A stretch of 64,000 nucleotides of DNA. Source: Archangium gephyra (GTDB taxonomy: Bacteria; Myxococcota; Myxococcia; Myxococcales; Myxococcaceae). Shown here one piece after another: positions 28,546 to 37,941 of the stretch; the stretch's first letter is position 1, and every line of letters begins with the position of its first letter. The stretch lies in contig NZ_CP011509.1 in NCBI RefSeq assembly GCF_001027285.1, positions 7,712,501 through 7,776,500 of the forward strand, in the 5' to 3' direction. A program made the position numbers and the translations under genes. The notes below the pieces were generated by a model. The model had not been told where the DNA came from. It searched no databases and worked only from the letters and a program-made list of their open reading frames with translations.

Positions 28546-29526
28546 ATGCTGTCTTCCGTTGGCAAACGTGCGTTCACGCGGCTGCTGCTGACGTGTGTTC
28601 TCATCTGCGCATGCGGCGCGCCCGTCATCCTCAGGGGCCCCGCTGCCCTGCCCGGCGACGTCGAGGGAGCACTCCCGGTGAAGCTTTCCATCCAGGCGGT
28701 GGATCCCGCGGGCGGCGCGCTCACCTACGCCTGGCAGCAGCTGCCCGAGTCGCCCGCTGGGACCTTCAGCGATGCTTCCTCGCCTGCTCCCACCTGGCTG
28801 GCACCGGTGGTGGAACGGACGACGGTCTTCACGCTGCGGGTGACGGTGACGGACAGGAATGGAGGCACCGCGCAGGCCGAGGTCCAGGTGAAGGTCCAGC
28901 CCCCGCCGCGGCGGCACAACCGCGCGCCCGTGCTCTCCGGGGCGCCCGTGGTCTCACCCGGGCTGGCGAGGGCCGGAGACACCCTCACGCTCTCGGCGCG
29001 GGCGGAGGACGCGGACGGAGATGCCCTCACGTACCTCTGGCGCCAGCTCGCCCCCGAGCCCCAGGGCACCTTCGTCTCGGGGCCGGAGGGCGCGGACATC
29101 ACCTGGTTCTCCCCGCCGGTGGGCACCGGGACGGCCTTCACCTTCGAGGTGCTCGTCTCCGACGGCCACGGCGCTCCGGTGCGCGGGACGGTGACGGTGC
29201 CGGTGCACGTCCCCCGCTATGCCCAGGACATCCAGGTGCTGTGGAGCTCGCTGTGCACCGGGTGCCACGGCCGGAGCGGTGGGTTGGATCTGGCACCGGG
29301 CCAGAGCCATGCGGCGCTCGTCGGGGCGCCCATGCTGACCCGGGCGTGCTCGGACCTCAAACGGGTGGCGCCGGGCGACCCCGACTCCTCCGCGCTCCTG
29401 AAGAAGCTGACCGGGACGGACTGTGGAACTCGTATGCCGCGCAACGATCCGGGCCACTTCGATGCCCACCCGGGAGAGCTGGTGCGCATCCGCTCCTGGA
29501 TTCTCGGCGGTGCGGCGGACGATTGA
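28546..29526 (+). CDS. PKD-like lipoprotein with a c-type cytochrome domain
   Basis: 326 aa, strong GGAGGGGGG ribosome site. The lipoprotein signal ends LICAC. Two PKD/Ig-like modules of ~90 residues follow, each with LTYAWQQL or LTYLWRQL and a TVFTLRVTVTD or TAFTFEVLVSD closing strand. The C-terminal ~100 residues hold one haem-attachment motif CTGCH with a distal MPRNDPGHFDA Met. It probably binds one covalent haem on the outer face of a membrane. The redox partner is not evident; no oxidase or dehydrogenase is nearby. Confidence 0.8.
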   Translation: MLSSVGKRAFTRLLLTCVLICACGAPVILRGPAALPGDVEGALPVKLSIQAVDPAGGALTYAWQQLPESPAGTFSDASSPAPTWLAPVVERTTVFTLRVTVTDRNGGTAQAEVQVKVQPPPRRHNRAPVLSGAPVVSPGLARAGDTLTLSARAEDADGDALTYLWRQLAPEPQGTFVSGPEGADITWFSPPVGTGTAFTFEVLVSDGHGAPVRGTVTVPVHVPRYAQDIQVLWSSLCTGCHGRSGGLDLAPGQSHAALVGAPMLTRACSDLKRVAPGDPDSSALLKKLTGTDCGTRMPRNDPGHFDAHPGELVRIRSWILGGAADD

Positions 29527-29642: not shown

Positions 29643-32600
29643 GTGGCAGCCCAAGAGTCACAGTCCTGGGGCCACCGACTGTGGCCCGCGGCGACGTTCC
29701 AGTTCGCCCTCATCGCTGGTGTGACGCAGCTGAAGACGGCTGCCAACGCACTCGTGTTGTCGCGCTTCGAGTCGCACATGATGCCCTACCTGTACCTGGT
29801 GGGCGCATTGCTCGTGGCGACGCTGACGCTGATGCCGCGCCGGGAGCCGGATGCCCGCACCGAGTCGCTCAGCGTGCTCACCGGGGTGGGCGGGCTCATC
29901 GTGCTGGGGCTGGCCGCGGGCGTGTCCATGGGCCAGCGCGTTCCAGCGCTGGTGCTGTACCTCTTCGTGGACGCCTTCACGACGATCATCTCCCTGCGCT
30001 TCTGGGGACGGATGGCGTCGGCCTTCGACGCGCGCGAGGCGCGGCGGGCCTTCACCGCGCTCAACGGCGTGGGCATGGCGGGAGGCATGCTGGGCGGCCT
30101 CCTGGTACAGGGACTCGCCGAGCGGCTCGGCACCGCCTCCATCATCGTGGGTGGCGCGCTGTCGCTCTACGCCGCGGGAGTGGCCTTCCACTTCCACCAC
30201 AGCGAGGGGCCACGGACCGCGCGCCCCCGGCACATGGCCCCGCCGGTGGCGGCCTGGGAGTACCTCTCCACCAGCAGCTATGCCCGGGTGCTGGCGGCGC
30301 TGGGCGTGAGCTTCGCGGTGCTGTCCTCCTTCGTGGACTACCTCTTCCGGCTGCGCGTGGAGAACACGCTCAGCGAGGACGGGCTGGCGGCGCTCTTCGG
30401 CTCGCTGCAGCTGTGGATCGGCCTGGTGTGCGTGCTCTTCCAGCTGCTGCTGGCCGAGCGGCTCCTCAAGCGGCTGGGGCTGATGAGCTACCTGGCGCTG
30501 CTGCCCGGGGCGATGGCGCCGCTGGCGGTGGCCTCACTGCTGACGAAGGAGCTGTGGCCCGTCCACCTGCTGCGGCTGCTGGAGAACGCCGTCAACTACT
30601 CGCTGCTGCCGGTGGGTGTGCAGCTGCTGTACGCGGCGGTGCCGGACGAGGAGCGCGAGGCCCTGCGGAGCGCGGTGGACGGGCTGCTGCGCAAGGGCGG
30701 AACGGTGCTGGCCGGTGTGCTGCTGATCGGCGCGGGCCGCGAGGCCAACGGCGTCACCATGGCGCTGGTGGTGGTGGGCGTGTGCGGCCTGCTCGGCGTG
30801 CTGCTGCTGCGCCTGAGGCCGGCCTATGTGGAGGCGCTGGGCGAGCAGGTGGGCGCCCACGGCGAGGACGACGAGGCGCTGGGCCGCGAGGATCGCCGGC
30901 TGCTGGTGGAGGCGCTGGGCTCGAGCGCGCCGGACCGGGTGCTGCACGCGCTGGATCTCCTGGCGGAGGAGGGACTGCCGCTGCGGCCCCACCTGCCCGT
31001 GCTGCTGCACCACACGCACGAGCGGGTGCAGGAGCGCGCGGTGGCCCTGGCGCTGGAGCTGGGCGCCACCGAGACGGCTCCGCAGCTCGAGCAGCTGGTG
31101 ACGCAGGGCTCCCGGCGGCCGAGGGACATCGCGGTGGGCGCGTTGGCGAAGCTGGCGCCGGAGCGGGCGGAGGTGCTGCTGCCGCCGCTGTTGCAGAGCC
31201 CGGACGTGGGGCTGCGCTGCGCGGCGGTGGTGGCGCTGCTGAGCACGAAGTGGCGCGCGGCGGCGCTGGTGTCGCTGGGGGCGCTGACGGCCCGGGGCGC
31301 GCAGGCGCCGGTGTCGGATCGCCGCGAGGTGGCCCGGCTGTTCGGCCGGCTGAAGGACCCGAGCTACACGCCCATGCTGACGGCCTACCTGAGCGATCCG
31401 GACAGCTCGGTGCGGCGCGTGGCGGTGCGCTCCGTGGGCGAGGGCGGCTACGTGAAGCTGGCGCCGAGGCTGCTCACCTTCCTCACCTGGCGCGAGGAGC
31501 GGCGCGAGGCGCGCGAGGCCCTGGCCTCGCTGGGTGACGAGGTGACGCCCCTGCTGGAGGCGACGCTCAACGACCTGGCCGCGCCGCTGGCCATGCGCCT
31601 GCAGGTGCCGCGCGTGCTGCGCCTGATCGGCACGCCGGGGGCGCTGCACGCCCTGCTCTTCTCCAACGTGCGCGACGATGCCCGGCTGCACTTCCGCATT
31701 GGCGCCGAGATGTCGCGCCTGCGCGATGAGCACCCCGAGCACCCGGTGGACGAGGATCGGGTGCGCGAGGCGCTGGGCCGGCGGCGTGAGGTGTACCGCG
31801 CCCTGGTGGAGCCCTTCCGGGACTTGCGCGCGGAGCTGGGAGACCACGCGCTGCTCACCCGCGTGGTGGGGGATCGGCTGGATCAGGCGCTGGAGCTGTC
31901 CTTCTTCCTGCTGGGCCTGCTGCATCCGCCCCACGTGATGCGGCGCGTGCACCAACAGGTGGCGGGCCAGGACGCGCGGCGGCGCGCGTATGCGCTGGAG
32001 CTGCTGGAGACGCTGACGAACGAGGAGGACCGGGAGCTGGTGCGCGAGCAGGTGGAGTCGCACCACCGGGATCTGCCTCCGGGCACGACGGGCCAGTTGG
32101 AGGCGCACCTGGCGTGGTTGTGCCGCAGCGAGGATGTGGTGCTGCGCGCGTGCGCGCGCTACGTGGCGGGCCGGATCGGCATGGATCTGCCGCCCACGCA
32201 AGAGGGAGACATGAGCCAGGCGACGGTGCAGAAGCTGTTCCTCCTCGAGGAGGTGCACGTCTTCTCGCAGAGCGACGTGGACGACGTGGCGGCGGTGGCG
32301 GCGATTGCCCGCGAGGCGCGCTTCCGCGCGGGCGAGCGCGTCTTCAGCCAGGGAGACCCGGGAGACGCGCTCTACGTCATCATCGAGGGCGCGGTGGACG
32401 CGCGCAGCAACGGTGAGCACGTGCTGCGGATGCGCGCCAAGGAGACCTTCGGGGACCTGAGCCTGCTGGACGGAGCCCCCCGCCCCACGGACGCCATCGC
32501 GGTGGAGGACACGCGGGTGCTCGTCATCGACCGGCGTGACTTCCTCGATCTGCTGGCGGACCGTCCGGAGCTGCTGACGGGCTTCTTCCGCGCGGTGACC

Positions 32601-32726
32601 CAGCAGCTGCGGGCCGTCATCAACGCGTCCGAGCAGACGCCGCTCAGCGGGGCCCATGTGGTGGAGCTGCCGAAGGAGGAGCAGAGCCCTCCTCCGGAGG
32701 AACAGAAGCGGCCCCTGGCGGGCTAG
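29643..32726 (+). CDS. Npt1/MFS-like transporter fused to HEAT repeats and a cyclic nucleotide-binding domain
   Basis: 1027 aa, GTG start without a clear Shine-Dalgarno. Residues about 15-400 contain ten to twelve membrane helices, arranged like an MFS or nucleotide translocase (Npt1/Npt2) module. Residues about 415-860 are helical HEAT-type repeats (for example SPDVGLRCAAVVALLSTKWRAAA and DPDSSVRRVAVRSVGEGG). Residues about 890-995 are a cyclic nucleotide-binding fold (GERVFSQGDPGDALYVIIEGAV, FGDLSLLDGAPRPTDAIA). The usual GEL of cAMP sites reads GDL, so ligand type is uncertain. The fusion suggests transport gated by a soluble second messenger or by HEAT-bound partners. Monocistronic in appearance. 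Confidence 0.8.
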   Translation: MAAQESQSWGHRLWPAATFQFALIAGVTQLKTAANALVLSRFESHMMPYLYLVGALLVATLTLMPRREPDARTESLSVLTGVGGLIVLGLAAGVSMGQRVPALVLYLFVDAFTTIISLRFWGRMASAFDAREARRAFTALNGVGMAGGMLGGLLVQGLAERLGTASIIVGGALSLYAAGVAFHFHHSEGPRTARPRHMAPPVAAWEYLSTSSYARVLAALGVSFAVLSSFVDYLFRLRVENTLSEDGLAALFGSLQLWIGLVCVLFQLLLAERLLKRLGLMSYLALLPGAMAPLAVASLLTKELWPVHLLRLLENAVNYSLLPVGVQLLYAAVPDEEREALRSAVDGLLRKGGTVLAGVLLIGAGREANGVTMALVVVGVCGLLGVLLLRLRPAYVEALGEQVGAHGEDDEALGREDRRLLVEALGSSAPDRVLHALDLLAEEGLPLRPHLPVLLHHTHERVQERAVALALELGATETAPQLEQLVTQGSRRPRDIAVGALAKLAPERAEVLLPPLLQSPDVGLRCAAVVALLSTKWRAAALVSLGALTARGAQAPVSDRREVARLFGRLKDPSYTPMLTAYLSDPDSSVRRVAVRSVGEGGYVKLAPRLLTFLTWREERREAREALASLGDEVTPLLEATLNDLAAPLAMRLQVPRVLRLIGTPGALHALLFSNVRDDARLHFRIGAEMSRLRDEHPEHPVDEDRVREALGRRREVYRALVEPFRDLRAELGDHALLTRVVGDRLDQALELSFFLLGLLHPPHVMRRVHQQVAGQDARRRAYALELLETLTNEEDRELVREQVESHHRDLPPGTTGQLEAHLAWLCRSEDVVLRACARYVAGRIGMDLPPTQEGDMSQATVQKLFLLEEVHVFSQSDVDDVAAVAAIAREARFRAGERVFSQGDPGDALYVIIEGAVDARSNGEHVLRMRAKETFGDLSLLDGAPRPTDAIAVEDTRVLVIDRRDFLDLLADRPELLTGFFRAVTQQLRAVINASEQTPLSGAHVVELPKEEQSPPPEEQKRPLAG

Positions 32727-36276: not shown

Positions 36277-36307
36277 TTGACGACCCGGGGGGGAGGTGTG
36301 GTATTCG
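36277..36307 (+). promoter_or_regulatory. possible sigma-70-type promoter of the 5'-nucleotidase-like gene
   Basis: TTGACG at 36277-36282 and TATTCG at 36302-36307 are separated by 19 bp, about 33 bp before the gene's start. The spacing is longer than ideal and the -10 is poor, so this is tentative. Confidence 0.25.
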
Positions 36308-36340
36308 CGCGGTCGTATCGCCAACGAATTCGGAGCCCTC

Positions 36341-37941
36341 ATGCATCGCGAGTCCGTGATCAAGCCGGCGACGGGTGGAGTGCACCCGTGGCGCCGTGCT
36401 TCCGGTGTGGTCGCCTTCGCCCTCCTGGGCGCGCTCACCGGCTGCGAGAAGGAAACCCCACCCGCGCCGCCGGCCGCCCCGCCGGCCAAGACGCCCGCGG
36501 CCAAGCCCGCCCCCAAGCCCACCACGGTGACGGTGCTCGTCACCGGCAGCCCCAACGGGCAGCTGCTGCCCACCCCCCCGCCGAGGGGGAGAAGCCGGCC
36601 ACCGGCGCCGCCGAGCTGCTCGGCTGGTGGGCCGCCAAGGAGAAGCACTGTCCCGGCCAGCTCAAGGACGGCCAGGCCCCGTGCAAGAACGGCTCGACGC
36701 TGGCGCTGACCATCGGCGATGCGTGGAACGGCCCCGCCATCTCCTCCTTCTTCTACGGGGAGACGACGTCGGCGGTGCTGGGCCGCATGGGCTTCGCCGC
36801 CTCCGCCCTGGGCAACCACGAGCTGGACTACGGGCGCGAGCAGTTCCAGAAGAACCTGCAGGCCGGTGGCTTCCCCTTCCTGGCGGCCAACCTGAAGGTG
36901 AAGGACGCGGCGCTGGCCAAGGACTGGGATCTGCCGGGCTTCAAGCTGTTCGAGCGCCAGGGCCTGAAGGTGGGCGTGGTGGGCCTGACGTCGCCCAAGA
37001 CGGTGTCCACGGCCATGGCCGGGCGCGCCGAGGGCCTCGAGGTCCTCTCCGACGAGCAGGCGCTGACGGACGCGGTGGGCGAGGCCCAGAAGGCCGGCGC
37101 GGACACCGTGGTGGTGCTCGCGGACGAGTGCCCCAGCGATCTGCAGCCCGTGGTGGGCAAGCACCCCGAGTGGAAGGTGTCGCTGGTGGCCGGTGGCCGC
37201 TGCGCCCAGCCGGTGAACACGAAGGAGGGCAACACCACCTACGTGTCGCTGGGCCGCGGCTTCGACAAGTACCTGCGCGCCGCCTACACCTTCGACGGCT
37301 CCAAGCCCGAGGGTGAGCAGGTGACGGGCGTGGAGGTGACGATGGTGGACGTGACCGGCGGCGAGGGCGCCCCGGCTCCGGACGCCGACACCGCGAAGAT
37401 GATCGCCGACTTCAAGGCCAAGCTGGATCAGGCCCTGGGCGAGGAGATCGGCTTCACGAAGAAGGCCTTCGAGAAGGACTCCAAGCAGCTGATCAGCTGG
37501 GTGACGACGGCCATCCGGGAGCAGGCCGGCGCGGACGCCGTGGTGCTCAACCGCAAGGGCTTCCGCGAGGGCCTGCCCGCGGGCAAGGTGACCAAGGGCA
37601 GCGTGTACTCGGTGCTGCCCTTCGAGAACTCGGTGATGGTGGTGGACGTGAAGGGCGCGGATCTGGCGCGGCAGCTGGCCAACCCGGAGGCGGTGTTCTC
37701 GGGCTTCACGTCCTCCGGCAAGGGCAAGTTCAAGGACGCCAAGGGCAAGCCGCTGGATCCGAAGAAGGAGTACAAGGTCGCGACGGTCGAGTACCTCTAC
37801 TTCGGCGGTGACGGCTTCGAGTTCGAGAAGCTGGATCCCGAGCCGGGTGAGACGGGCATGTCGTGGCAGACGCCCGTCATCGACTGGACCAAGGACAAGG
37901 CCACCACCGAGGCCAAGCCGCTGGACAAGCTGATCAAGTAG
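36341..37941 (+). CDS. 5'-nucleotidase/metallophosphatase-like lipoprotein, frameshifted in a C-tract
   Basis: The ATG at 36341 follows GGAG by 5 nt. The first frame has a lipobox (GALTGC) and a Pro/Ala/Lys spacer, and reads correctly to the seven-C run at 36573-36579. The true protein continues in the next frame from 36580 to 37941; adding one C restores a 533-residue protein. It carries the metallophosphatase GNHELDYG motif and a typical 5'-nucleotidase C-domain (VLPFENSVMVVDVKGADLARQL, YFGGDGFEF). The first metal motif, normally Asp-x-His, reads TGSPNGQL, and the GHTH-type loop reads AGGRCAQP, so the active site looks degenerate. Periplasm-facing. A strong hairpin follows. Confidence 0.78.

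Follow-up and report, generated by a model that had tools for sequence, protein, structure and literature searches.

An NTT-HEAT-CNBD fusion protein of Archangium gephyra without the nucleotide-binding lysines of AtNTT1 and with a non-canonical phosphate-binding cassette

The gene described here (29643..32726, + strand) lies in a 64,000-nucleotide stretch of the Archangium gephyra genome, referred to below as the window, and encodes a 1027-aa protein that begins at a GTG codon and joins an NTT-type membrane domain, HEAT repeats, and a cyclic-nucleotide-binding domain (CNBD). The fusion is an ordinary member of a published, apparently unstudied kind, and two of its sequence features bear on mechanism: the lysines that bind ADP and ATP in Arabidopsis NTT1 (AtNTT1) are absent from the membrane domain, and the phosphate-binding cassette of the CNBD departs from the canonical form. 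We tentatively favor, with slightly less than even confidence, a reading in which the protein is an NTT-superfamily transporter of the cytoplasmic membrane whose C-terminal HEAT arm carries the CNBD as a regulatory head.

The host genome is a single contig of 12.5 Mb. The layout of the protein was established from the open reading frame, Pfam, an alignment of relatives, and a full-length AlphaFold2 model (mean pLDDT of 87.7 and pTM of 0.79), whose input alignment held 58 sequences with no canonical NTT among them. Residues 1 to 406 (29643..30860, +) form the membrane domain, of the MFS fold, with twelve long helices that end at residue 403 in the model and AtNTT1 as the nearest fold. The Pfam family of TLC ATP/ADP transporters (PF03219) matched residues 205 to 281 at 19.0 bits, slightly below its curated cutoff of 21 (E = 7e-4), and MFS_1 gave an E value of 0.07. 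A helical solenoid follows at residues 415 to 845 (30885..32177, +), with HEAT_2 (PF13646) matching in two stretches (45.7 bits versus a cutoff of 27.7; E = 8e-12). The CNBD, at residues 859 to 998 (32217..32636, +), is modeled as a beta barrel with flanking helices, matched PKA/CRP-type chains in the PDB, and contains the cNMP_binding domain (PF00027) at residues 893 to 973 (72.9 bits versus a cutoff of 27.5; E = 2e-20). The tail at residues 999 to 1027 (32637..32723, +) is predicted to be disordered (pLDDT under 50). Thus, all three traits of the fusion family (an NTT domain, HEAT repeats after it, and a C-terminal CNBD in the same polypeptide) are found in the window protein, and the initial annotation of three domains in one polypeptide is confirmed by the single ORF, Pfam, and the model. 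Two of its details are adjusted: HEAT repeats are present as described and extend over about 430 rather than ~450 residues, and the membrane domain, given there as Npt1/MFS-like, is indeed Npt1-like and can be refined to NTT type, a branch of the MFS fold.

Strong matches to the fusion (E<=1e-60) were retrieved from 121/193 sampled Myxococcota genomes, including the window's own, and 23/121 of the matching genomes lie outside the window's order. This answers the earlier suggestion to search for the same fusion elsewhere and, given the number of genomes, indicates that the fusion is no artifact. Most matches (107/121) were in one piece spanning at least residues 31 to 974; the other 14 were in pieces or partial. 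At the level of the order, 52 ORFs, window copies included, were reduced to 47 distinct sequences, namely, the window's own and 46 relatives at 35 to 96% identity, one of which (L030) ends at residue 974. A sequencing or frame error as the source of the fusion was rejected on the strength of these 46 relatives. The product of Archangium violaceum Cb vi76 (L017) is 95% identical to the window protein. From the 23 genomes outside the order, 20 further relatives were taken (G067, G081, and G095 were left out), giving 67 fused sequences; the membrane domain is readable in 66 of them, as L169 has none. In a tree, 25 fused rows of the window's order make up one side of a branch with 100/100 support, and the NTT-HEAT clade is separate from them. 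The canonical, NTT-only, and L109 rows sit on long branches in this tree, and L150 to L169 stand outside it; only the support for the fused clade was used. A third, divergent NTT-HEAT-CNBD fusion occurs at L109:1609-4785 and L144:1-2799; its cassette reads PRSAD, and the L109 fusion shares about 26% identity with the window protein.

The NTT fold was the top structural match of the membrane part whether or not the alignment contained canonical NTTs. With the whole-protein model, the best fold was AtNTT1 in PDB entry 9j3m (Z of 36.9; rmsd of 2.6 over 398 residues), followed by 9j3l (Z of 34.3), LacY (Z of 31.2), and NTT chains in other states (9j3j, 9j3o, and 9j3n; Z of 29.5, 28.6, and 28.2). 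When the membrane domain was modeled alone, with three canonical NTTs included in its alignment, the ranking was 9j3l (Z of 37.8; rmsd of 2.5 over 401 residues), CpNTT1 in 9j3n (35.3), 9j3m (35.1), and then LacY (30.5). The best NTT chain thus exceeded LacY by 5.7 Z units in the first model and 7.3 in the second, and a generic MFS protein or scaffold was dropped as an identity for the membrane part, although NTT chains in other conformations reached Z of only 28 to 30 with the whole-protein model, level with or under LacY. A match to a non-transporting scaffold family, which the initial annotation named as refuting its reading, did not occur, and the nearest solved fold is that of a transporter. 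A profile that included canonical NTTs matched NTT structures at E values of 5e-70 and 4e-64 (next match, 8e-6), a separation that arises partly by construction. A single-sequence phmmer search of the PDB had 144 matches, and the 60 listed included no NTT. PF03219 had no match at E<=1e-3 in the window's own genome; because it was equally silent in all 14 control genomes, this result says little. Some members of the fused clade do pass the PF03219 cutoff (G009, G022, G039, and G041).

Other NTT-related proteins came to light in Myxococcota. In the window's own genome, a 471-aa NTT-like protein with no HEAT or CNBD match is encoded at C1:1741997-1743412 (L102:1498-2913); it scored 19.7 bits for TLC and 24 bits for MFS_1, both below the cutoff. 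Canonical ATP/ADP translocases occur in Myxococcota genomes of 0.5 to 1.8 Mb (L062 to L065, from G087, G098, G084, and G110, and also G090), with over 600 bits in four. The presence of such translocases in genomes of this size suggests that these members of the phylum are host dependent.

In AtNTT1, four charged residues matter, K155, E245, E385, and K527 (PMC4256464). ADP binding is lost in K155E and even in K155R, and ATP binding is lost or weakened in K527E and K527R, K527E being the one in which it is lost (PMC3306366). The AtNTT1 numbering was fixed on the solved chain, where an offset of 84 fits K/E/E/K at all four positions and the other offset tried fails. This numbering places K155 at Tyr51 (29793..29795, +), and the lysine of the "KD" pair in TM1 was rejected as its equivalent. 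The residue is Tyr in 66/66 readable fused sequences and Lys in 4/4 canonical TLCs. At the place of K527, the window protein has Thr354 (30702..30704, +), and no Lys is found there in 66/66. Three residues earlier in the same helix lies Lys351 (30693..30695, +), which is Lys in 65 and Arg in 1 of the 66; since this helix might be out of register, the K527 equivalent is placed with less certainty than the other three. Both acidic places are retained, as Asp110 (29970..29972, +) for E245 (Glu in 38 and Asp in 28 of 66) and as Asp232 (30336..30338, +) for E385 (Asp in 66/66). The four canonical NTTs of the phylum have all four residues (4/4). The unfused NTT-HEAT relatives are also devoid of both lysines, with Tyr in 28/29 and Ser in 1 at the K155 place and no Lys in 29 at the K527 place (29 of 30 rows, one having been left out for length).

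These residues bear on the idea, put forward by Major, Embley, and Williams in 2017 and implied by the initial annotation, that the protein is a cAMP-controlled ATP/ADP (nucleotide) exchanger. Its nearest folds are those of the ATP/ADP exchangers AtNTT1 and CpNTT1, and the two acidic residues are kept in 66/66; however, Lys occurs at the K155 or K527 place in 0/66, where single substitutions already cost AtNTT1 its ADP or ATP binding (PMC3306366), and the window protein scores under the PF03219 cutoff. Because the equivalents of K155 and K527 are absent, ATP/ADP exchange by the window's clade is judged from its sequences to be unlikely, and the cAMP-controlled exchanger as a whole seems to us very improbable. 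Myxobacteria are free-living, and ATP import is not known in them. Nucleotide transport, which the initial annotation had in mind, is thus disfavored by the loss of both lysines.

The transport core is otherwise nearly constant. Among the charged residues of the fused family, Lys31 and Arg342 are present in 66/66 and Arg236 and Lys351 in 65/66. No variation is seen at Lys31, Tyr51, Asp232, and Arg342 in the 66 readable sequences, of which the window's is one; this speaks for transport having been kept, and we infer that the fused protein would be an active carrier for another anionic substrate. A transceptor, that is, an NTT without transport that senses an anionic metabolite at the membrane and signals inward via HEAT and CNBD, would account for a conserved fold that has no nucleotide-binding lysines and would give a role to the large HEAT interaction surface. 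Yet canonical transporters share the core charged residues, as well as the EA[RK]R motif where helix 5 begins and the motif following helix 10, and we regard a transceptor as distinctly unlikely.

The phosphate-binding cassette, FGDLSLLDGAPRPTD, occupies residues 936 to 950 (32448..32492, +) and in the alignments includes Asp938, Arg947, and Pro948. The canonical cAMP-binding cassette reads FGE[LIV]AL[LIMV]x[PV]R[ANQV] (PMC2246266), from which the window's FGDLSLLDGAPRP departs by Asp for Glu, Ser for Ala, and Pro after Arg. Arg947, Gly907, and Glu/Asp938 are the counterparts of Arg209, Gly169, and the ribose Glu of cAMP-binding CNBDs (PMC2246266, PMC3080414). In published structures, the phosphate is held by the arginine together with backbone amides of the P-helix and the ribose by the Glu, and the next residue beyond the arginine, which in PKG is Thr193, selects cGMP (PMC3080414).

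Within the window's order, Arg947 is present in 47/47, Gly907 in 46/47, and Glu/Asp938 in 45/47 sequences; over all fused sequences, the phosphate arginine is found in 59/67 and Gly907 in 62/67, and the window protein has both. Of the 47 sequences of the order, 29 have Glu at position 938, 16 have Asp, and 2 have Ser, so that the "GDL variant" singled out by the initial annotation is an Asp/Glu swap. We agree with that annotation in leaving the ligand of the C-terminal domain open. The more telling departure, as judged from sequence, is Pro948. In the order, the residue after the phosphate arginine is Pro in 40, Ile in 4, Leu in 2, and Val in 1 of 47; among all 67, it is Pro in 52 and never Ser/Thr. 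A proline at this position would also deprive the pocket of a backbone amide which, in PKA and CRP, touches the phosphate. The 20 fused relatives outside the order have Arg-Pro (12) or His-Ala (8) and Glu/Asp at position 938 in only 2/20. All His-for-Arg replacements (8/67) come from family f13, and these eight rows may represent one event; position 938 is Gln, Ser, Gly, or His in 20/67 fused sequences. Replacement of the arginine in a CNBD can go with a different ligand, as in CooA, which has His and binds heme (PMC2246266). Other CNBDs were located at 34 places in the window's own genome; 32 could be aligned (2 gave no match), and 18 have the arginine. The next residue in these 18 is Ser (8), Leu (4), Thr (3), Phe, Ala, or Asn and never Pro. 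Because Leu and Phe occur there, a hydrophobic residue after the arginine is not unusual by itself.

Myxococcota also have a split counterpart, in which an NTT-HEAT gene has an adjacent gene for a canonical CNBD (mostly L082 to L101, and L148). It is homologous to the window protein over residues 5 to 849 (profile E = 3e-100) and forms a clade separate from the fused rows, and its CNBD is a separate protein of about 137 to 160 aa, whereas that of the window protein is fused. A short separate CNBD ORF was found at 16/20 NTT-HEAT loci examined. In 13/16 cases, it comes after the NTT-HEAT gene in the same orientation, less than 400 bases away or with an overlap; the exceptions lie 3 to 4 kb off (L089 and L090) or on the other strand (L093). 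Because 13/16 split pairs adjoin on one strand, the NTT-HEAT and CNBD parts appear to belong together. The split cassette is PRSA[TS] or similar, with RSAT in 12, RSAS in 3, and RMAT in 1 of the 16 separate CNBDs, i.e., a canonical RSA[TS] in 15/16.

Retention of the canonical cassette in the unfused paralogue would suit a reading in which the fused CNBD is a fossil sensor, a ligand-free head for structure or dimerization on a constitutive transporter, with HEAT-CNBD serving assembly or partner binding. Also in its favor, 47/47 sequences of the order follow the arginine with Pro, Ile, Leu, or Val, 8/67 have His for Arg, and 20/67 have lost the ribose acid, with the transport-core residues barely changing. 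A fossil pocket, however, should also drift at Arg947, Gly907, and position 938, which the order keeps in 47, 46, and 45 of 47 sequences. We consider a fossil sensor possible, if somewhat doubtful. It is also conceivable, but in our estimation improbable, that the pocket of the fused clade, with Pro after the arginine and a drifting acid, was retuned to a ligand other than cAMP or cGMP, possibly the transported anion or its product; the domain would then be a built-in cytoplasmic feedback sensor, and the split sister would stay under cAMP control.

A different arrangement is seen in family f13 (L138 to L143), where two dissimilar NTT-HEAT genes are arranged as a head-to-tail pair. In L138 and L140 to L143, one member of each pair belongs to one sub-clade of the tree and its partner to another, which suggests an NTT-HEAT heterodimer. 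In the stretches examined around these tandem loci, a CNBD gene was found only near L139, about 2 kb away.

In the window, the upstream gene (28546-29526) encodes a PKD domain and is matched in six loci (L017, L018, L033, L034, L036, and L037). Downstream are a convergent gene that matches no Pfam family and then a gene with a 5'-nucleotidase C-terminal domain, a pair that keeps its order in those loci from L017 to L032 whose contigs extend far enough. The first gene of the pair is on the opposite strand; thus, the pair and the transporter gene do not share an operon. Among the nearest genes, no cyclase or substrate-metabolism gene is fused or in an evident operon. The N- and C-terminal parts of the 5'-nucleotidase-like gene (36296-37941, +) are in different frames in the window and in one ORF in L017 and L018, reflecting a genuine frameshift or a fault in the assembly.

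Under the favored reading, a transporter with a HEAT-borne regulatory head, the HEAT arm and CNBD would be cytoplasmic, with the placement of the CNBD relative to the carrier taken from the predicted model. The carrier's substrate would be an anionic metabolite, probably a phosphorylated one, and not ATP/ADP, and the HEAT arm would couple the CNBD's state to the carrier on its cytoplasmic side. Among members of the window's order, binding of a small ligand with a phosphate group via Arg947 probably persists in the CNBD, by way of a non-canonical pocket; in some outlying relatives, sensing may have been lost or changed. Pro948, the His for Arg in f13, and the replacements at position 938 suggest that sensing is not constant across the family.

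Among solved structures, AtNTT1 and CpNTT1 (PDB 9j3j/l/m and 9j3n/o) are closest in fold, with best chains at Z of 35 to 38 and rmsd of 2.5 to 3.2 over about 400 residues; they share 12% identity with the window protein, and the names of these PDB entries show no HEAT or CNBD. As a precedent for cyclic-nucleotide control that works alike, sea-urchin SLC9C1, a Na+/H+ exchanger, is a solute carrier gated by cAMP and voltage, according to a review (PMC11120249). It shares with the window protein a cytoplasmic C-terminal CNBD on a solute carrier and differs in its NHE-type domain of 13 TM helices and in the voltage sensor between carrier and CNBD. SLC9C1 appeared in the top Foldseek rows, and homology was rejected (TM of 0.12 and rmsd of about 35, a chaining effect with no full-length match). 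Direct second-messenger gating of a transporter, presented as new in the initial annotation, therefore had a precedent in SLC9C1, and the fusion itself was already in print: Major et al. described NTT-HEAT, NTT-HEAT followed by a cNBD gene, and NTT-HEAT-cNBD in 2017 and suggested that cAMP bound by the cNBD tunes ATP uptake (PMC5381601). Their study, which included 33 deltaproteobacterial NTT sequences, places these fusions in bacteria, including cyanobacteria, and in oomycetes, proposes a single origin of the NTT-HEAT fusion, and states the functions of the fusions as unknown (PMC5381601); NTT-HEAT fusions are mentioned again in PMC6995639. NTT-HEAT-CNBD fusions are thus widespread in bacteria, and, with the wordings searched, we found no functional study of them. 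The fused and split forms, mostly RP versus canonical RSA[TS], offer a natural comparison for cyclic-nucleotide control of carriers. The fusions of Major et al. have the same three domains in the same order as the window protein and the same unfused NTT-HEAT plus CNBD counterpart, and the consulted parts of that report contain no residue-level test. What is added here is NTT1 as the closest fold, the absence of the K155 and K527 equivalents from the Myxococcota fused sequences, which makes the published idea of ATP uptake unlikely for the window's clade, and the departure of the pocket, mostly through Pro after the arginine, in the fused form versus the canonical split form.
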